Both the position numbers and the translations under genes were made by a program. 27,103 nucleotides of DNA from a virus. The notes under the pieces were generated by a model. It saw nothing but the letters and a program-made list of their open reading frames with translations. It was not told where the DNA came from and did no database searches. The number at the start of each line of letters is the position of its first letter. The stretch's first letter is position 1. Location: IMG/VR virus record IMGVR_UViG_3300005529_000649, positions 1-27,103 of that record; one strand, given 5' to 3'. Of the stretch, positions 5,689 to 24,000 are shown in pieces.

Positions 5689-6939
5689 TTGCCTGCTCTA
5701 ACTAGTGCGGGAACTGTTTCGGTTCAACTCGAAGCAGTTTCGGAAGCCCTTCCTCTCATGGTGGAGAAGGAAGGCACCCTGGACAAAATGATCCAGGACC
5801 GCGGACGGGCGAAACGAGTTTCAACTCGTAACTACCGTATTCCGCTCAAGACCAACCTGCCCGGCTCGGTGTCGAAGATCAACCTTGACCAGGGCGATTT
5901 CCCGCGCGGCTCCGGGACCGGCTACGACCTCTTCCAAGTCACGCCGCTGGCTTTCACGGTTCCTTTGGAACTCACGAAGCTGGTGGAACTGACTGGGAAA
6001 GGCCAAGACGTGGCGACCGTCGATGTGGTCAATGACAACATCGCCGACGCTGCGGCCGCTCTCCGGCGCTTCCGCGACGTATTCCTCCAAACCGCTGGCA
6101 CGGGCCAGTTGGCGACTGTCGCTTCCACCTATGCTGGTGGTGGCGCAAACCCAATCACTCTGGCTTCGACGCCTTTCGGGGCGCGCTTGCTTGCTAAGGA
6201 CCAAACCGTTCAGGTTTTCAACCCGACCGGCAACGTTCTGCGCGGTACCATGCGCATCCTGAAAATCCAGAACACCCTGGGTTCAACCCAGACGATCACC
6301 GTAGACGCTGTGCCCGCCGGCACGGTCGCCAACGACCTGATCATGGTGGCTGGTGTCGAGCAGGGCACGCCCATTTTCATCAACGGCATCCCGGTATTCC
6401 ACTCGACGAGTGCAACCGGAACCTTGATGGGAATCGATCGCTCCAACGTTTACACGCAAGCCAACGGTGTGAACGCTGGCTCGGTTGGCCTCGTACAGCC
6501 TCTGCTCCGTCTGGCCATGAACCAGATCCGGCAGGCGCTCGGCGACGATGCCTTAACCGGCATCTTCTTCCACACTCACCCCTCCCAGGGCCAGGCTTAC
6601 GAAGAGCTTGGCTTCCAGATTCAGTACATTCCGCTGGAAGGCGGAAAGGCTGATGGCATGGATCTGCTGTTCCGCGGGAAGAAGGAAGTCTCGGGCAAGC
6701 CGTGGGTGGAAAACATCCACGCTGACCAGACTCGAATCGACCTGATGAACACCAAGGTCTGGGGCAAGGTGAAATGGGGCGACCCGCCGTTCTGGTACGA
6801 GTTAGAGGGCCAGCGAGTTTTTCCGATTAGTAACATGGTCGCTCTCAGCCGAAATGCTGATGAGAAAATTCCTTCTGATGGACTCGGAAGCTGTGATGCC
6901 AACGAGGCGCAAGCTGAGGATCTTCCTCTTGCAGCGTGA
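5689..6939 (+). CDS. Major capsid protein, exon 1 with unspliced read-through
   Basis: The gene starts at TTG 5689 with Shine-Dalgarno GGGAG. Position after portal and scaffold, length near 420, and blocks such as VTPLAFTVPLELTKLVEL and FWYELEGQRVFPI are consistent with a phage major capsid protein, probably HK97-like fold. The unspliced frame runs to TGA 6937-6939 (416 residues), but its last 36 residues after VFPI are unlike a capsid end and lie in RNA that folds as a group I intron. Joining 5689-6827 to 7058-7184 gives a 421-residue protein ending YVDNPRAVGSITSLLVPAGN, which reads like a genuine capsid C-terminus. The unspliced form probably lacks a strand needed for folding. Exact splice sites are inferred. 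Confidence 0.85.
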   Translation: MPALTSAGTVSVQLEAVSEALPLMVEKEGTLDKMIQDRGRAKRVSTRNYRIPLKTNLPGSVSKINLDQGDFPRGSGTGYDLFQVTPLAFTVPLELTKLVELTGKGQDVATVDVVNDNIADAAAALRRFRDVFLQTAGTGQLATVASTYAGGGANPITLASTPFGARLLAKDQTVQVFNPTGNVLRGTMRILKIQNTLGSTQTITVDAVPAGTVANDLIMVAGVEQGTPIFINGIPVFHSTSATGTLMGIDRSNVYTQANGVNAGSVGLVQPLLRLAMNQIRQALGDDALTGIFFHTHPSQGQAYEELGFQIQYIPLEGGKADGMDLLFRGKKEVSGKPWVENIHADQTRIDLMNTKVWGKVKWGDPPFWYELEGQRVFPISNMVALSRNADEKIPSDGLGSCDANEAQAEDLPLAA

Positions 6940-7057
6940 GAGACTAAGCGAAGGAACGCCCCTCGCGGGTGATGCAATAGTCCGGTCTCATGGGAACAAG
7001 AACCATGAGAGTGCGGCAGAAATGACCGCACCCACCTACACGGTGAGTAACAAGTCG
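6828..7057 (+). ncRNA. Group I self-splicing intron in the capsid gene
   Basis: The helices can be placed in canonical order. P1: exon CGAT 6824-6827 with GTCG 6838-6841, giving the U-G wobble at the 5' splice site. P2: 6842-6849/6856-6864. P3: TTCCTTC 6869-6875 with GAAGGAA 6950-6956, seven perfect pairs. P4 candidate: 6889-6892/6912-6915. P5 candidate: 6898-6900/6906-6908. P6: GAGGA 6916-6920/TCCTC 6924-6928. P7: GACTA 6942-6946/TAGTC 6978-6982. P8: 6957-6961/6967-6971. P9: eight pairs 6986-6993/7003-7010. P9.1: 7011-7016/7026-7031. P9.2: 7033-7036/7042-7045. The AGACTAA...ATAGTCC signature is the usual P7 core. No endonuclease ORF is inside. The terminal G could be 7054, 7057 or 7063; all keep frame. 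I prefer 7057 from the protein sequence. Confidence 0.85.
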
Positions 7058-7184
7058 CTATGGAACCAACGGCTCGCTGACCGGCGGCTGGATTTCGTTC
7101 CTTGTGGACGCATACCAGACCTACGTGGACAATCCGCGAGCTGTGGGCTCGATAACTTCGTTGTTAGTGCCAGCTGGTAACTAA
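7058..7184 (+). CDS. Major capsid protein, exon 2 (C-terminus)
   Basis: This frame is shifted relative to exon 1 and encodes GSLTGGWISFLVDAYQTYV followed by DNPRAVGSITSLLVPAGN, ending at TAA 7182-7184. Blocks with NPRA-x-x-S-x-x-S-L-x-x-P-A/S-G at the extreme end are familiar from HK97-fold capsid proteins of environmental phages (my recollection of the family, not a search). There is no start codon or ribosome site suited to independent translation, and a TGA at 7044-7046 blocks it upstream, so it should be expressed by splicing from codon 380 of exon 1. The removed length is 2 modulo 3, exactly what is needed to join the frames. Confidence 0.8.
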
Positions 7185-7206
7185 TGACGAATGGTGTTGA
7201 CAATTT

Positions 7207-7234
7207 CCAGAGCAGGAGTAACATCCTGCTCTGG
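7207..7234 (+). promoter_or_regulatory. Perfect 11-bp hairpin between capsid and HNH genes
   Basis: Eleven bases (7207-7217) pair perfectly with 7224-7234 around loop GTAACA. The hairpin lies after the capsid stop and its 3' foot overlaps the GGAG (7233-7236) that should serve the HNH start at 7244. It could stop or slow transcription after the abundant capsid message, protect its 3' end, or restrict HNH translation. There is no long T run. Confidence 0.6.
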
Positions 7235-7243
7235 AGTGTTTAT

Positions 7244-7996
7244 ATGAAAGAAACCAAGCGCTGTCCGGCATGCGGAGAAGATAAGCCACGGACAGAAGAA
7301 TTCTATTACTTTCGGCCTGGTCGAACACCTACATCTCCTTTGGTTCCTTACGGTAGATGCAAGCCGTGCCATCGCAAGGCGACACAGGATTGGCGGAAGG
7401 AAAATATTGTTCGTGCACGAGCGTGGCGTCGCGAAGACATGCGCAACTTGCGCCAGCAAATCCTGGAGCACTACGGGAAAGCATGTGTGTGCTGCGGGAT
7501 CGATGAGCCAGCGTTCCTTTCGATAGACCACATTCACGGCGGCGGATCGAAGCACATTAAAACGATGAACACGCACGGGAACTATTACCGATGGCTGGTG
7601 AAGAACAATTTTCCTGCTGGCTTCCAGACGCTTTGTCACAACTGCAACCAAGCCAAGGGATACTACGGGTGCTGCCCGCATCAACTCAACGCAAGCCCTG
7701 AGAAGCTGCAAGCACTCGGAATGAAGCCGCGCGACAACTTCCCGGTTGCGATCAACGGTAAGATGAAAACCTGTCGGGTGTGTCATCAGGCTAAGCCGTT
7801 TGAGCAGTTCATCAACTTTGGTGCGCCAGGAAGCAAGCGGAATGTGTGCAGAGAATGTCGAGCACAAGCAACCCCTAGTCTCGTGGCAGTTTCCCTCGCC
7901 ACCGAAGCCGAGGTAAAGCGGCTGTTCGCTGAAATCGCGAAACCGCATGGTGCCGTGGAAAAGATGGAAAAGATTGTCACATCCGCTGTCCATTGA
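7244..7996 (+). CDS. HNH homing endonuclease, free-standing beside the intron
   Basis: The 250-residue protein has three Cys clusters. The first is CPACGEDK (C7, C10) with CKPC. The central HNH/treble-clef module has CVCCG, LSIDHIHGGG (D95-H96) and LCHNCNQAKG (C131, C134, N135). A third knuckle has CRVCHQ and CREC. HNH enzymes nick or cut DNA using the His and a metal ion; phage versions often spread themselves and nearby introns. ATG 7244 is chosen because GGAG lies seven bases upstream; an in-frame ATG at 7184 overlapping the capsid stop (TAATG) would add 20 residues that cross the hairpin. It is followed by its own intrinsic terminator. Its target is likely near the capsid intron site, by inference. 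Confidence 0.9.
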   Translation: MKETKRCPACGEDKPRTEEFYYFRPGRTPTSPLVPYGRCKPCHRKATQDWRKENIVRARAWRREDMRNLRQQILEHYGKACVCCGIDEPAFLSIDHIHGGGSKHIKTMNTHGNYYRWLVKNNFPAGFQTLCHNCNQAKGYYGCCPHQLNASPEKLQALGMKPRDNFPVAINGKMKTCRVCHQAKPFEQFINFGAPGSKRNVCRECRAQATPSLVAVSLATEAEVKRLFAEIAKPHGAVEKMEKIVTSAVH

Positions 7997-13445: not shown

Positions 13446-15662
13446 CTGAATTTTCAAGGCTCGCAACCCCACATTTACGATCGATGGGGTTCGGTCATTG
13501 CCTTGGAAGACCCGACCACGCTGCCTATGGGCGTGGCCAAGGTCGCAAAGAATTGCCGTTACAAGCCTACATCGGTAGTTACCCGCTTTGGCGTGCAGCA
13601 GACCATGGTCACGCCAACCCAGGACCAGCCGATTACGGGCTTGTGGGCAATCTATGTTCATGGCACTACCGAACTCCAGGTTCCCATCATCTTCGATGCC
13701 GCCGGGAAACTCTACTACGAGAATCCGGTTGGATCGGGCATCCTCACCCCACTTGCGCCTGCTCAACTAACCCTGCCCGCCGCCGCATTCCTTCAGATGG
13801 CGACCGCCTTCAACAAAGGCTTCGCCACCATCACTGATCTGAAAAGTCCACTTGGGCCAAACCTTGTAATCAACGGCGCTGTCTCGCCGCCGACCGTGGA
13901 TCCGCTCTCCTTGCACCTGATGGGGCAGAGCTGGCAGGCAGGAGAGGCTTACCTGCTCGGCGAAGTCGTTACGCCTAATCCGGTGAATGGGCATCAGTAC
14001 CGCTGTATCCAGCCCGGCACCAGTGGCGCTGCGCAACCAGCGTTTCCTACGGGTGCGGGTGCGACGGTAAACGATGGCAGCGTTATCTGGAAAGAATCGA
14101 CGCCAAGCGCTGTTTCAAGTGGCAGCGCCGGAAATATCTGCACTGGCACGCGCTACATGGTTTGGTTGTTTCAAACACGCTCTGGCTACATTCAGGGCAT
14201 GGACGATGGTGCGCCGATAGCGGTGACTCCTGGAGCTTCTGCGCAAAGCTTGCGCTGTAACAATATCCCCATCGGACCTGTACACACGATTCGTCGCATT
14301 GCCGCATTTACTCTTCCCGGCGACAACTCCGGAGGGCGGTATTTCTACATCCCGGTCAACGATTCCCGCTCAGGCGTAAGCCAAACCTCCACGGTCATCA
14401 ATGACAATGCGACCACCAGCGCAGTGTTCAATTTCGATGATGACTACCTCGAGGGCGCAGTTGCGGTTACTGACTTCTTCCGAAAAACCAAAGTTCCACC
14501 AGCGATGGACATCTACTTCGCGGAGTCGCTAAACCGGATGATTTACCAGACGAACCTTTATCCGTCAGGTTTCATGGTCTCGCTGCCGGGAGATTTCGAA
14601 TCAGTTTACGCGGACACAGGGCTGGTCCAAGTGGCTCAGGACAATGGCCAGAGAGCTATCGCCTGGCGCGAATACAAAGGCACGCAGTATGCCCTGAAAG
14701 AACGTTCCGGACATGTAGTCACGGAGAACCCGAACGACCCAGCCACATGGAATGTACGCAAGCGCTGGGACAAGAAAGGCCCGTGCGGCGTCCGCGCCGT
14801 AGATGTGGGGGCATCATTTCTGTTCTTTGCACATCGTTCTGGACCGCAGATGTTTACCGGAGACCTGCCACTGTGGGTAGGCGAAGAGATCGTCAAACTG
14901 TGGAAACGGATCAACTGGCAGTACCGGCACCTCATCTGGGTGCAGATCGATGAAGAGCAGTACGAAGTCCGTATTGGGGTTCCATTTGACGACTCGACCA
15001 TCTGCAACAAGATTTTCACGGTGAACTTCCTGAAAGGCTGGGATCCGCCAATACACTGGTCACCGATTGCCGGAAAACTGGTTGCCAGTCCCAACAGTCG
15101 CAAGTGGTCGATAGACGATATTCCGGCTACGCAGGCCGTTCGTCTGGAGCGCGACCTCAGCTCAAATCCGCCACCACAGCCACAAGATCAGGAAATCATT
15201 GAACGGGACGTTCTGCATACTCAACTGCTGTTTGCCTCGTCCGCGCCCGACGGCTTGGTGAACATGCTTTGCCCGGGCATTTACAACGACAACGGAAGTG
15301 GCATCGATTGGGTATACGAGACGGCGTTCACTTCGACAACCACGGGATTGTTTTGGCAAGCCAATGGAGTGGTAGTCACGGCGCGCGGCGATGGCGACTT
15401 GGCGGTGAGGCTCTTCCGCAGCATGAACGACAAAGACAATCTAGACCTCAATAGCCGCACGTTTTCGCTGAAACAGACCTTTGAAGACATGGGCCAGGGA
15501 GTATCTGGACAGCAGGGCAACCGCTTCCGGCTGCGTTTCTCGAACGAGGCGAAGCCCGATGTTTATGCCGAACTCCTGAAAGCAGTGATCTATGCCAATC
15601 AGATCGGCGCTGGCCCGAAGAATGCGAACGAGATGGTGAACCGAGGGCCAAATGCCCAGTAA
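13446..15662 (+). CDS. Large tail/stopper structural protein, probable CTG start
   Basis: The frame gives 738 residues from CTG 13446 or 719 from TTG 13503. I prefer CTG: the added residues NFQGSQPHIYDRWGSVIALE read like real protein continuous with EDPTTLPMGVAKVAKNCRY, and AGGAG is well spaced. The protein is beta-rich with repeated Trp/Gly blocks, a carbohydrate-binding-like YLLGEVVTPNPVNGHQYRC segment near residue 180, and ALKERSGHVV and SFLFFAHRSGPQMF in the second half, consistent with a propeller-like tail protein. P22 gp10-type tail hubs are comparable by position only. The end overlaps the next gene by 11 bases. There are no catalytic residues that I can name. Confidence 0.7.
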   Translation: MNFQGSQPHIYDRWGSVIALEDPTTLPMGVAKVAKNCRYKPTSVVTRFGVQQTMVTPTQDQPITGLWAIYVHGTTELQVPIIFDAAGKLYYENPVGSGILTPLAPAQLTLPAAAFLQMATAFNKGFATITDLKSPLGPNLVINGAVSPPTVDPLSLHLMGQSWQAGEAYLLGEVVTPNPVNGHQYRCIQPGTSGAAQPAFPTGAGATVNDGSVIWKESTPSAVSSGSAGNICTGTRYMVWLFQTRSGYIQGMDDGAPIAVTPGASAQSLRCNNIPIGPVHTIRRIAAFTLPGDNSGGRYFYIPVNDSRSGVSQTSTVINDNATTSAVFNFDDDYLEGAVAVTDFFRKTKVPPAMDIYFAESLNRMIYQTNLYPSGFMVSLPGDFESVYADTGLVQVAQDNGQRAIAWREYKGTQYALKERSGHVVTENPNDPATWNVRKRWDKKGPCGVRAVDVGASFLFFAHRSGPQMFTGDLPLWVGEEIVKLWKRINWQYRHLIWVQIDEEQYEVRIGVPFDDSTICNKIFTVNFLKGWDPPIHWSPIAGKLVASPNSRKWSIDDIPATQAVRLERDLSSNPPPQPQDQEIIERDVLHTQLLFASSAPDGLVNMLCPGIYNDNGSGIDWVYETAFTSTTTGLFWQANGVVVTARGDGDLAVRLFRSMNDKDNLDLNSRTFSLKQTFEDMGQGVSGQQGNRFRLRFSNEAKPDVYAELLKAVIYANQIGAGPKNANEMVNRGPNAQ

Positions 15663-17037
15663 CCAACTCAGCCGGTTTGACCTGGAAGCAGCCTCGCAAG
15701 GGAATCCAGCACTGCGCCAGATGCTGGAAGCTTTGATCGAGGACAGTGCGGCCCACAAATCCTTTACCGGCTATCACACAAGCGAACGCGAGGAGCCGGC
15801 CACGGTCAGGATAGGCGGTATCGCGGGCGGGCTGAAAAACTCTCCTGCGCCGCGCGGTGGGATTCAGCCTCCGCGGGCCGCACAGTGGACGGTTGTCGGA
15901 GTGGATGGAGCTTTCATTCTGGATATAGTTAACCCGGATGCCAGACTCGATCTGGCTTTTTCGGGATCGTTAACTCCGATACAGTTCCGCCGGCGCTTTC
16001 GCCGTCCACCCGGCCATCTAGCCTCAGATTTAGATTTCGACGATCGGCCAGAGCGCGCCTTCCGAGCGCACAGTCCGCGCCAGCTAATTCACCAGGTGCA
16101 AAGCGCCCTGGACCTTAATTTCAATGCCAACTCCGCAGTCGACACCTACGGTCCTAGTCCGACTACGCACTACCGTATTACCGACCGGGCCAACCAGACG
16201 CGCTACTGGCGCTTTCGCTCCAAGTACGCCAACTCCGACTGGAATGCGTGGGCTTACTGGATCGATCCGGCGCTATGTGGAGTGGTGGCGGTGTGGTCAG
16301 GGCTGCTGCGCACGCAATCCCTCACCGTAGTCAATGCCGCCAACACGCCCAACGTTCAGCCTCTCACCCAGTCGGCAACGTCGACCAGGATTAACGTCGC
16401 GGCCACCACGCAAACTTTCGGTTCGGCTCCAAACGTCGCTTATGCAGGAGGCTTCGTCGATCCCGGCGCGTACGGAACGTTCTACGTCTACTGTCTGGAT
16501 CTTAAGCGCCAGGGCGGTGCAGTGACCTACATCGCGACAACCTCCAACCCAACCGTAACCGCCGATGATGCTGTCGTTTACTTCGGGAAAATCACTACCT
16601 CGGCGGGTGGCGGAGGAGTCGGAGGCGGAGGCGGAGGCGGACCCTGCTGTATCGGGGAAGTCGAAAACACCATGTTCGATGGCTCCAAGAAGCGCAACGA
16701 CCGCTGCCGCAAGGGCGATGTGTTGCGCGGAATAGACGGCGGGCCGGAGCCGATCGAACGGATTGACATGGTGCCAGATATTCCTTGCTTTCGCTACGTG
16801 GGAGAGAACGGCCTGGTTCTGCGGGGCTGCTCTGCTGAGCACAGCCTGCAGTATGACGGCGGAGGATTTGATCATGCCTTCCTGATTGTTTCCGGACACA
16901 GGGTAGAAACCGAGAATGGCCCTTCTCGCATTACCAGGGAATTCATTGGGCATCACACGGTGTACAAACTTCACCTCGCGGGCCGCACCAAGACTTACAT
17001 TGCCGACGGCTATTACAGCCACAACTTGATGAAATGA
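15652..17037 (+). CDS. Tail protein with C-terminal Hint/intein-like domain
   Basis: The 461-residue protein starts at ATG inside the previous gene's end. Residues 1-320 are virion-like: an N-terminal helical part, beta segments (WTVVGVDGAFILDIVNPDAR), and a Tyr/Trp-rich middle. A glycine linker (about 319-331) leads to a Hint-like module, residues 332-461: Cys332-Cys333 at its start, TMFDGSKK and KGDVLRGIDGG as in intein block A regions, CSAEH with H397 as block B, and TYIADGYYSHN with H457-N458 near the end, as the intein C-terminal HN. Hint domains cleave or splice themselves. Only Leu-Met-Lys follows Asn458, so splicing is unlikely; N-terminal cleavage at Cys332/333 or a structural role is more plausible. 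Confidence 0.75.
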   Translation: MPSNQLSRFDLEAASQGNPALRQMLEALIEDSAAHKSFTGYHTSEREEPATVRIGGIAGGLKNSPAPRGGIQPPRAAQWTVVGVDGAFILDIVNPDARLDLAFSGSLTPIQFRRRFRRPPGHLASDLDFDDRPERAFRAHSPRQLIHQVQSALDLNFNANSAVDTYGPSPTTHYRITDRANQTRYWRFRSKYANSDWNAWAYWIDPALCGVVAVWSGLLRTQSLTVVNAANTPNVQPLTQSATSTRINVAATTQTFGSAPNVAYAGGFVDPGAYGTFYVYCLDLKRQGGAVTYIATTSNPTVTADDAVVYFGKITTSAGGGGVGGGGGGGPCCIGEVENTMFDGSKKRNDRCRKGDVLRGIDGGPEPIERIDMVPDIPCFRYVGENGLVLRGCSAEHSLQYDGGGFDHAFLIVSGHRVETENGPSRITREFIGHHTVYKLHLAGRTKTYIADGYYSHNLMK

Positions 17038-17345: not shown

Positions 17346-17701
17346 AAGAGCTTTACCAGGCGCAGTGTAAGCGAGTGGGGAAGACTCTTGACTGGTTTGA
17401 CCCAACCAAACCACCTGCACTGTGCTGCGTGGTGGGAGAACTGGATGGAAAGATTGTAGGCGCCATCGGGGGAGAGATGGTCGCTGAACTGTTCGTGATT
17501 GCCAGCGACCCGCGGTTTGCGCGCGACGCCATGCGGCAGATAGGCGTTCCCTTAGCCAGCCACTTCCGGCTACGAAAGATCAGGACGGTGCGCTGTTTTG
17601 TGCACAAAGGGTTTGAGCGATCGATTGCCTGGCTGCTGAAGAAGTTCGGGTTCGAAGGTCCAATGAAAGAATATGCCCATTACTACCTTCCGTTGGAATA
17701 A
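17288..17701 (+). CDS. GNAT-type acetyltransferase-like protein
   Basis: The 137-residue protein from ATG 17288 (TTG 17282 would add two residues) has the GNAT layout: an N-terminal strand and helix RSARPEDVPALKELYQAQ, central antiparallel strands CCVVGELDGKIVGAIGGE, then ELFVIASDPRFARDAMRQIG where the acetyl-CoA loop normally lies, and a C-terminal KKFGFEGPMKEYAHYYL strand like GNAT motif B. The usual Q/RxxGxG/A acetyl-CoA loop is not clear, so activity is uncertain. It may modify a virion or host protein. Its 3' end is covered on the opposite strand by the tail of the LAGLIDADG gene. Confidence 0.6.
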   Translation: MSFRSLHWRSARPEDVPALKELYQAQCKRVGKTLDWFDPTKPPALCCVVGELDGKIVGAIGGEMVAELFVIASDPRFARDAMRQIGVPLASHFRLRKIRTVRCFVHKGFERSIAWLLKKFGFEGPMKEYAHYYLPLE

Positions 17702-18506
17702 ACAAGCTTTCCTTAAGAAGGCGCGATCGGAGTGCCTCAGACTTGGTCCGCTGCTTTTCTCCGGCCGCACTAAGAGCGGCCTCTACGGTGTCGTACGTGG
17801 TGCCAATGATCTTCGCTACCTCTCTTGTCGAAAAGCCTGCTCTATAAAAGGCAACCATTTCCGCCTTTTTTTGGCAGGAGCGTGGCGGACGATCAACGAA
17901 CGCCTTCCACACCTCGTACTTTCTAGAACATCTCGTCCCTGCGGTGGAGGTGGTGTATATCCAATAACCCATCTTTACGGATTCCGATTGGTTCAATTGC
18001 AACGACCACGTCACTCCCGTTCTAACAATCGCTCGGCTACGTTTAATGATTCGATTTTCGGCGAGGACGACGCGCAGATCCTCTACGAACCCACGCGATG
18101 CAGATGCATAGGAACATTGGAGGGTTCCATGCTCCCTTCTATTAAAGAAACTGCCATCGGTGTCAAACAGACCGCGCACGAAGTGGGGCATAACATCGAA
18201 CGGCACAACAGGGAATCTCATGGTGTGCGCTTTGGCAGGAGTCAATCCGAATTGCTTGGCCATCTCTTTCCACAATTCTGGCGAGAAGAAATTAACAACG
18301 TAAAGACGTTGATGAGAGTGGACACGCAAGCTTCCGCCGAAAATAGCGGAGACGTTCTCAAGGACATCTATATCTCCGCCACACAGGCTGGACAACTTCC
18401 CGTTGCGATTGAGGTTGCCATCGCCAAACATCAATCCGAGAAACCATGCTTTCTCGGAAGTAAGCGGAGACAGGGACCAACTAGCAGGAATCTTTCTAAG
18501 TCGCAT
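17580..18506 (-). CDS. LAGLIDADG homing endonuclease with C-terminal HTH
   Basis: On the reverse strand, ATG at 18506-18504 gives 308 residues (TTG 18515 would add three). Two LAGLIDADG motifs are present: FLGLMFGDGNL with D29 and VRGLFDTDGSF with D117, each providing a metal-binding acid at the active site, followed by MGYWIYTTSTAGTRCSRKYE as in single-chain family members. Residues 217-245 form a helix-turn-helix (YRAGFSTREVAKIIGTTYDT), likely for DNA recognition. About the last 40 residues are read from the antisense strand of the GNAT gene, as expected if the gene inserted next to it. It is oriented against all structural genes, so needs its own promoter. It probably cuts phage genomes lacking the insertion. 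Confidence 0.85.
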   Translation of the reverse strand: MRLRKIPASWSLSPLTSEKAWFLGLMFGDGNLNRNGKLSSLCGGDIDVLENVSAIFGGSLRVHSHQRLYVVNFFSPELWKEMAKQFGLTPAKAHTMRFPVVPFDVMPHFVRGLFDTDGSFFNRREHGTLQCSYASASRGFVEDLRVVLAENRIIKRSRAIVRTGVTWSLQLNQSESVKMGYWIYTTSTAGTRCSRKYEVWKAFVDRPPRSCQKKAEMVAFYRAGFSTREVAKIIGTTYDTVEAALSAAGEKQRTKSEALRSRLLKESLFIPTEGSNGHILSLDLRTRTSSAARQSIAQTLCAQNSAPS

Positions 18507-18514
18507 ATGTGCCA

Positions 18515-18520
18515 ATTATA
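18515..18520 (-). promoter_or_regulatory. Candidate -10 TATAAT for the LAGLIDADG gene
   Basis: Read on the - strand, a perfect TATAAT lies eight bases before ATG 18506. Transcription would start at or near the ATG, implying a leaderless message, consistent with no visible Shine-Dalgarno. A convincing -35 box is not seen. Confidence 0.35.
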
Positions 18521-21037: not shown

Positions 21038-24000
21038 ATGCCAGATACCGCCTCTCTAGACGACATCCAGGAACAACAACAGTCAGCAGCGAAAGCCAGT
21101 GGGACGGCTTCGCTCGATGATATTGCTTCCCTGGATGACATTCAGGAAACCCCGCAAGCCGCCGCACCGCCGTCTCTCTCTCATCGCCGCGGTGGCATGC
21201 AGACCACGGAGATAGTACCTAGCAAGGAAGAGCAAGAGCGGAGAATGTCCGAGGCTCTCCGCGAAGATCAGGCCGAGCAGCCCAAGCCCACACTCGGCCA
21301 GCGCGCGCGCGAGCTGGTTGGCATGTTTACTGACGTACTCACGCATCCCTCACCTGGCGCCGAAACCGGCATGAAGCAACTCGGCCCACAGGTATCGAGT
21401 GGCTTAGGGCATGTCGCGACACCAGGCAAGCGAGCACTCGGCGGATTGGAACTTGGGGAAGCTGGTATTGAAGCTGCAACTCCGTTGCTCGGTCCCGCCA
21501 CTCTCGCCCCCACAACTCTTCCAGCAGAAGCGGCATTGCCCTATGCCGTAAAACTGGCTGCTGGCCAAGCATCTGGTCTCGGTGCATCAGAAGCGGCTGG
21601 GCGAACTGCCAAGGCGTTTGGGGCGTCTCCCACAACTGAGCAGATTGTGCGTGATGCTGGATTCTTCCTGCCGTCGTTAATGGGTGCTGCATTTGGCGTG
21701 AAAGGAACCTTGCGCACGGGCGAAGAGGGCACAGCTGGAACCGTCGAAGCACTTGGCGGACGAGTCGCCGGCGGATTCGCGAAGACCCCGGGAAGCTACG
21801 ATATTGCCGCGAAGGTCGGGAAAACCACAGTGGGCGCCAGGATTCCTCGAGCTCCCGCTCCGCCACCAACTTCTGCAGATGTAGCCACGGAAGCCATGGC
21901 GCGCGCCCAACTGGCAGATGGATTAGCTTCGGGAGAAATTAAGCCGCCACCGCCTCCGCCAGTTCCAGGACCAGACAATCTCTCGCCCGAAGTAGTCCAG
22001 GCACTCGCCGAAGCAATCAAGGAAGCGCCAGCCGCTCAGCAACCAAAACTTATCCTCGAAGCACATCAACGGATCGCGTCGTGGATATTGCAAAAAGGCA
22101 AAGTTGTTGGCCCAGACGGGCAAGTAGCGGTTGCCGATAATCCAAAGTCAGCAGAGAGTATCGCCACTAAATGGGTCAACGAAGCGGTCAAAGCCCAAAC
22201 GCCCCTCACGAGTAGCCCGGGTGGCAAGGATATGCCATCGCCGGTGGCTGGCGGCGTCAAGGATAGCGAAGTTTCCAAGTCGGTTGTCCAACGGCCGCTC
22301 GTTGGAGTGGTGGACGATCTCACTGGAAAGCAGGCTGCGCCCAAGAGTGCGCTCGACCAAAAGGCGGTGCTCGGCGAGAACAAAACTGCCATTAGTAAAC
22401 CGTCGGTGTCCGTCGTCGGTGATATAGCCAGTGGTGTACCCGAGGTTCCTGCATCCGAGACTGCAATACTTCCGCCCACCTTTCCTGTTAGCGGGGAAAG
22501 TAATCTCTCTTCCGCAGACAACACAGTTGACCGCAGCCTTGGGATAGGCGCAATCCATGGAGCAGAACCGCGTAGTTCTAGCAGCAGTAGCGCGCGAGGG
22601 GGGAACCATGAAAGTTCTTCCACACCCATCACAAACAAGGGCGACTTGGGTTCCTCTGGTGTTTCGTCTTTGGCTCTTGAGAGCGGCCGCGCAAGCACGG
22701 GAGCACGTCCGTCTGGGAATGGCGGCCTTCCAGCTGCCGGCGTCGAAGGCGCTTCCGCAAATGAGACAGGTCTTAGTCAAATAGGTAAGGAAGAACCGAG
22801 TACAGGCAGAGAAATTATACAGCCGTCTTCTAATCCAGAAAAGTTAGACAAGATGGCAGAGAAAGCCGCTCCGCAGTACGAAGACCGCTTAGAAGCTGTA
22901 ACCAAAGACATCCCCGGTGTGACCTATGAGCGTGTTCGCGACGAGAAAAACCCGTCGCGCCTGAAGGAGAAAATAGAAGGGGAGGATCAGCCAGCATCCA
23001 CCATTCCAGACTACCTCGCAAGCCAAGTTGTGATCGACTCCCCGGACGCGCTACCGAAGGTTCTGGAAGCGGTTCGTAAAGAATTCCCGGTCGTCAAAGA
23101 GGAAGACCTCTTCAACAAGGGCGACGATACCTACCACTTCCACCACTACGCCATCCAGCTACAGCAGCCCAACGGCCTGAGCGCCGAACTTCACATCATT
23201 CCGAAGGACGTGTTTGATGTGAATGCACGCGAACACGAAGTCTATAAGAAGGCTCGGAAAGCTGAAATTGAGGGTAACAATAAGGAGCACGAGGAGTGGG
23301 CAGCCAAGGCTCGCGAACTACACGACGCCGCTTGGCAGAAGTGGCTTGAGCGCACTGGCCAGAAATCCGTAGCAACTGACGTTCCACATGGAACGTCTCA
23401 CATCGACGAAATCCAGCCTGAGAAGTTTTCAAAGGGCGACCGCGTAACCTGGGCAGGAGCTGATGGGAAGCAGCGCTCCGGAAGGGTCTCTTACGCTGAT
23501 CCCAATATGGGCATAGTGCGGGTGACTCCAGAAAAGGGCGGAACACTGGAGATCAACCCGAGACGGCTAAAGCGCGAAGCTACGCCCCATAAAGAAGAGA
23601 CGCCAGTCTTGGCTCAGAGTACCCCACAGAATGCCAAGCCTGCTCAACTGGTGCCTCAGCCTGCGTCCGCTGAGCCATTAGTAGGGGCGAAGGAGCCTTC
23701 GGGCCAAGTAAATGCGTCTGAAGGCAAGCCAGATAAATTCAAGTACCGCTCCACCCAGACGAATATCCCTGAAGGTTCGGAAGCTGCCCAGTCCCTAGAG
23801 TCCGCCCGCCAGCGAATCGCCGACGGTGATCTTGCGGCCAAAGGCAAGGATGTAGGCGGGAACCATGTAACGGTTCGGTACGGCATCAAGGACGACGACA
23901 TCGAGGGCGTGCGCAAGTATCTGAGTTCACTGTCCCCGTTCGAAGCCAGACTCGGCAAAACTGAGAAGTTTCCGCCCTCTGAATCGAGTGACGGCGCAGC

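Follow-up and report, generated by a model that had tools for sequence, protein, structure and literature searches.

Results

A capsid gene interrupted near its 3' end

The stretch of DNA analysed here, referred to as the window, is a single metagenomic viral record of 27,103 bases. Its capsid ORF (5689-6939, plus strand) matched the PHROG major head protein family phrog_14242 (E=1.4e-5) and follows a long portal-like and a scaffold-like ORF, both named by position, for which protein family searches gave no family match. Read without interruption, the gene encodes 416 residues, the last 36 of which are derived from an intron-like insertion, and the conserved C-terminal 41 residues are lost; joining exon 1 to exon 2 without the 230-nt insertion yields a 421-aa protein (Table 1). 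No endonuclease ORF was found within 6828-7057. The original prediction was given for 6824-7184; the intron proper covers 6828-7057, the 126-nt exon 2 covers 7058-7183, and position 7184 already lies just past the capsid stop codon. The carrier of this split gene is a soil-type phage.

Table 1. Features of the interrupted capsid locus (window coordinates)
Feature	Position	Strand	Basis and remarks
Exon 1, major capsid (head) protein gene	5689-6827	+	Start TTG, end ...TTT CCG AT; phrog_14242 and relatives
P1	6824-6828/6837-6841	+	Exon CGAU(U) with internal guide GGUCG; 5' splice-site wobble U6827.G6838; sequence, predicted fold
Group I intron (very probable), 230 nt, no ORF of its own	6828-7057	+	Ends in G (omega-G 7057); structure, covariance model, frame, homologues
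P2 hairpin, loop CGAAAU	6846-6849/6856-6859, extended to 6842-6864	+	Sequence, predicted folds
P3, seven perfect pairs	6869-6875/6950-6956	+	Double-sided changes at all 7 pairs in relatives
P4	6883-6886/6903-6906	+	Pairing, covariation
P5	6890-6891/6898-6899	+	Pairing, covariation
P6	6909-6910/6934-6935	+	Pairing, covariation
P6a	6913-6914/6931-6932 and 6916-6920/6924-6928	+	Pairing, covariation
P7, GACTA/TAGTC	6942-6946/6978-6982	+	Guanosine-binding site: G6940-C6983, bulged A6941, G6942-C6982
P8 hairpin	6957-6961/6967-6971	+	All 5 pairs covary in relatives
P9	6987-6993/7003-7009	+	Pairing, covariation
P9.1, loop CAGAAAUGA	7011-7016/7026-7031	+	Pairing, covariation
P9.2	7033-7036/7042-7045	+	Followed by family-typical terminus GAGUAACA
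Exon 2, capsid gene	7058-7183	+	41 residues after the junction codon, and stop (YGTNGSLTGGWISFLVDAYQTYVDNPRAVGSITSLLVPAGN)
HNH / endonuclease VII-like ORF	7184-7996	+	Likely start ATG 7244; phrog_2255, E=1.3e-23; outside the intron
13-bp hairpin between capsid stop and HNH gene	7205-7236	+	Predicted fold -24.2 kcal/mol; possible terminator or translation block

The insertion has the architecture of a group I intron

The helices named in the original prediction (P1, P2, P3, P6, P7, P8 and three P9 hairpins) are all present and perfectly paired, and P4 and P5, which its list had missed, could be added. The elements follow the pseudoknotted P3-P8/P7 order, with P4-P6 between P3 and P7, while P10, the pairing of the guide with exon 2, is weak and was drawn by hand from the sequence. 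Extensions typical of two subgroups are absent, namely P7.1/P7.2 of subgroup IA (3 nt separate the P7 5' strand from the P3 3' strand) and P5abc of subgroup IC1 (P5 consists of 2 bp with a short loop). The motif GAGACTA-N20-50-ATAGTCC is found a single time in the window and in none of 100 dinucleotide shuffles, and the folding energy corresponds to z = -2.8. Similar P2 loops are found in the relatives on contigs L130 and L139. The intron ends (6824-6843 and 7041-7060) form an imperfect direct repeat (CGATTAGTAACATGGTCGCT and CGGTGAGTAACA-AGTCGCT) with a score reached in 0.05% of shuffles; this repeat was not seen by eye in L130 and may be due to chance.

Intronless homologues follow the spliced reading

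The capsid alone as query gave no match in IMG/VR or among named phages. A search with the portal-like protein led to related contigs, 28 of them viral and two from Acidobacteria MAGs; of the 28, 20 have a full-length, uninterrupted capsid gene and L003 has a partial one. The spliced protein aligned to its final residue with all 20 intronless capsids at 45-53% identity (45% for L002, 46-53% for the 19 others), and profile comparison covered it whole at 100% probability. Against L002 it scored 340 bits, compared with 313 bits for the unspliced protein, the alignment of which ends before the junction. By tblastn, exon 2 alone was placed correctly in L002 (E=1e-7), where the 36 unspliced residues had no match. 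The alignment of both forms to homologues, suggested as a check in the original prediction, came out in favour of the spliced reading: homologues with the 36 residues and without exon 2 would have spoken against it, and 20 relatives are collinear with the spliced protein through exon 2. The predicted error at the end of the 416-residue protein, the capsid C-terminus in another frame downstream and a removed length of 2 modulo 3 (230 nt, restoring the frame) were all borne out, and we conclude that the automatic annotation of the capsid C-terminus is wrong. An AlphaFold model of one relative's capsid had a pLDDT of 39.5 and was set aside, and a profile search of the PDB found no relatives.

The splice sites could be placed by codon identity. 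The window junction reads CCG AT/C TAT (the slash marking the joint), compared with CAG ATC TAT in L015 and others, and because the joined codons ATC TAT equal those of the relatives, the boundaries 6827/6828 and 7057/7058 are favoured. The predicted spliced junction is TTTCCGAT/CTATGGAACC, and the empty (intronless) junction is CCGATCTATGG. The splice rule was checked on L064, where removal of 199 nt, beginning after U and ending in G, joins ACGT/ACGC and restores the ORF. L130 encodes the protein read from the restored ORF (GSVSDPARQIGGWVSYNVRYTNTLRPGSTM) with no insertion at that point and has an intron of its own a few codons upstream. The window obeys the same rule, with U at the exon end and G at the intron end. 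The genes concerned in L130 and L064 are homologous, and their introns, which belong to one family, sit at neighbouring positions; in each gene the insertion site of the other is uninterrupted.

The intron belongs to a large covarying family

A search of IMG/VR with the pattern GTGAGAGACTA-N22-50-ATAGTCC revealed at least 120 viral stretches that share this fold; in total length, the matched motifs cluster at 43-49 nt. Most pattern matches contain a P3 of seven pairs three bases behind P7, in many different sequences; P3 is no part of the pattern, yet it covaries at a fixed place. P4-P6, P9-P9.1 and the GTAACA terminus are common to family members. In a 32-sequence alignment, 99.9% of 1301 pair cells hold standard pairs (shuffles, 77.7%; slid structures, 36-42%), and compensatory changes on both sides occur at 30 of 41 pairs (0 of 500 shuffles). 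Part of this covariation was selected, as P7 is in the pattern and P3 pairing and the P9.1 loop motif served as alignment filters; P4, P5, P6, P8 and P9 lie outside pattern and filters and therefore constitute unbiased evidence, and in the same alignment all of them pair at 99-100%.

A covariance model built from 31 relatives, with the window excluded, matched the window intron at 151.6 bits (E=1.2e-34). When the first 100 of the at least 120 pattern loci were searched with it, 159 matches were obtained; 523 kb of contigs with capsid or HNH relatives gave none, and there was no second intron within the window. With the Rfam model RF00028, the search proposed in the original prediction, the window intron had no match at the gathering threshold or at E<=10, although the element is group I by every other test made. 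Silence of a group I model had been named as refuting the intron; for RF00028 this silence is literally what was observed, but the out-of-sample family model does match. Since the directly scored family member in L130 also receives only 21 bits from RF00028, we consider that model an unfair test of this family and its silence a matter of detection rather than of biology. The L055 intron was detected by both models (34 bits with the family model, 74.9 bits with RF00028), tying the family to established group I introns. RF00028 matches in L055, L132, L096 and L100 were rejected as recognition of the family, their coordinates being those of other introns on the same contigs.

On seven contigs (L128, L060, L064, L093, L130, L097 and L108) two to four introns are clustered, separated by short exons. 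On five others (L049, L143, L163, L087 and L142) the P9 region is apparently replaced by differing endonuclease-like ORFs, which by eye look LAGLIDADG, GIY-YIG-like and HNH-like; this suggests repeated colonisation of the same ribozyme by endonuclease ORFs.

Family members interrupt head and reductase genes

Among 80 exon fragments adjoining family members, 20 matched the major head protein family phrog_1357 and up to four more matched other head PHROGs, while about a dozen matched ribonucleotide reductases and a few matched portal, adaptor or terminase proteins. An intron of this kind had been called uncommon in a phage capsid gene. This view did not hold: about a quarter of the tested family exon fragments represent major head proteins, a relative interrupts a P22-type coat gene, and capsid introns have been published (PMC3706429, PMC7886860). 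Two named phages carry the element without annotation, their gene halves being listed as separate CDS: Roseobacter phage CRP-118 (OR420741.1, L171), between two 'ribonucleotide reductase' CDS (covariance model R1, 82 bits), and Caudoviricetes ctn9Y15 (MW202674.1, L172), between two 'P22 coat protein' CDS (R1 model, 78 bits). These small phage introns are frequent, yet for the most part they lack annotation. BLASTN with the intron against phages and plasmids returned chance-level pieces only, of which the one in CRP-118 later proved to be a family member. In a search that detects positive controls, one of 297 genomes from the phylum of the Acidobacteria MAG had a family match, and a weak one; there is therefore no sign of a cellular home. 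Related phage genes were observed in the Acidobacteria MAG contigs L169 and L170. As to the phage host, there is a hint of an acidobacterium.

Discussion

The claim that a group I intron lies near the 3' end of this capsid gene is upheld by its structure, by covariation across the family and by 20 collinear intronless homologues. We regard it as very probable that the major capsid gene contains, at 6828-7057, a compact group I intron lacking an ORF, which would self-splice and thereby restore the head protein. Catalysis, as well as efficient splicing in vivo, we infer from established knowledge of group I introns. After transcription, the RNA would fold into the P3-P9 ribozyme core, with P1 formed between the internal guide GGUCG and the last bases of exon 1 (CGAU). 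The first attack, after U6827, would come from a guanosine bound in P7, and the freed exon 1 would then attack after G7057, joining the codon AT/C and restoring the 421-residue head protein. The intron was probably acquired by homing or recombination, and the adjoining HNH gene could, speculatively, have aided its arrival.

The downstream HNH gene is a free-standing endonuclease gene, because in L007/L029 a homologue with 41% identity follows an uninterrupted capsid gene at the equivalent position; the same contigs led us to reject the HNH gene as a mark of the intron. A role in moving the intron is nevertheless possible. The HNH enzyme might cut intronless capsid alleles close to where the intron inserts, so that repair carries intron, exon 2 and HNH gene along as a mobile unit, and collaborative homing has been proposed for split intron/endonuclease pairs. 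The position of the HNH ORF directly behind the 126-nt exon 2 and its absence beside the intronless capsid of L002 fit such a unit. Evidently, though, the HNH gene does not need the intron, which is missing in L007/L029, and IMG/VR relatives of the window HNH gene have no family intron nearby. In intron-rich phages, many homing endonucleases are encoded by genes standing on their own (PMC12363816), which is compatible with joint movement. On balance we consider a mobile unit rather unlikely; it is an addition to self-splicing and replaces no part of it. Elsewhere in the window, LAGLIDADG-type and HNH endonuclease ORFs lie on the opposite strand (17580-18515 and 22148-22780, both minus). By eye, the C-terminal part (16600-17037) of the ORF at 15652-17037 resembles an autoprocessing domain of the Hint/intein type (CCIGEVENTMF...GYYSHN); searches of Pfam and PHROGs at 0.001 gave no match.

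The missing RF00028 match could also be read as the mark of a relic, i.e. an insertion of group I descent that no longer splices, with the phage using the 416-residue capsid and its new C-terminus. We find this most improbable: no core pair is broken, and the core positions that are invariant in the family are unchanged. Exon 2 has kept its open frame, its conservation and its phase, all of which would erode without translation. Even less credible, to a degree we regard as negligible, is a frameshift, sequencing or binning error that put foreign DNA into the capsid gene: no second copy of this single metagenomic record was found, but a chance artefact would not place a full representative of a large structured RNA family, 230 nt long, at exactly the point where its removal repairs the gene.

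Capsid genes with group I introns are already known, and the intron described here is a further, well-supported case. In mycobacteriophage LittleE, a group I intron of about 820 nt with a LAGLIDADG-type endonuclease inside splits the major capsid gene, and its splicing was demonstrated by RT-PCR and N-terminal sequencing (PMC3706429); lactococcal phage Tuc2009 is cited there as well. Both LittleE and the window have a split major capsid gene, U at the end of exon 1 and G at the end of the intron, and free-standing HNH genes are common in the same genomes; unlike LittleE, the window has an intron of 230 nt without an ORF, the splicing of which is deduced. The crAss-like phages of the delta and zeta groups likewise have group I introns in their major capsid genes (PMC7886860) and are uncultured, but these introns were found via intron-encoded endonuclease domains, occur several per gene and belong to another lineage with other hosts. 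Small group I introns, averaging about 206 nt, have been reported in Jug phages, 37 of 76 predicted ones being confirmed by metatranscriptome reads (PMC12363816). The Jug introns share the compactness of the present one, and their endonuclease genes mostly stand alone; the intron-bearing genes named are terL, nrdD and DNA polymerase, and the introns were found with published subtype models. The elements in CRP-118 and ctn9Y15 are of the same subtype as the window intron, but sit in other host genes (ribonucleotide reductase and P22 coat) and have a diverged 3' domain.

We tentatively propose, while considering it somewhat more doubtful than probable, that the family represents an undescribed, phage-borne compact subtype, abundant in viral contigs, largely invisible to the Rfam group I model and by extension probably to databases built on it, and residing mostly in virion head genes rather than replication genes. 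Its marks would be the core GUGAGAGACUAA...GAUGCRAUAGUCCG, the P9.1 loop CAGAAAUGA and the GUAACA terminus. The frequency of the subtype and its invisibility to Rfam are the less expected part of the result; its concentration in virion genes in the present sample is also notable. The standard Rfam group I model also seeded the largest recent database. Since RF00028 fails on the members of the family that were scored, phage group I introns may be undercounted in the literature, with a bias towards those in replication genes. A covariance model is now at hand (31 sequences, strong covariation), making this testable on existing viral contigs and metatranscriptomes. The annotation error seen in the window recurs in other phage head and reductase genes interrupted by introns of this family.
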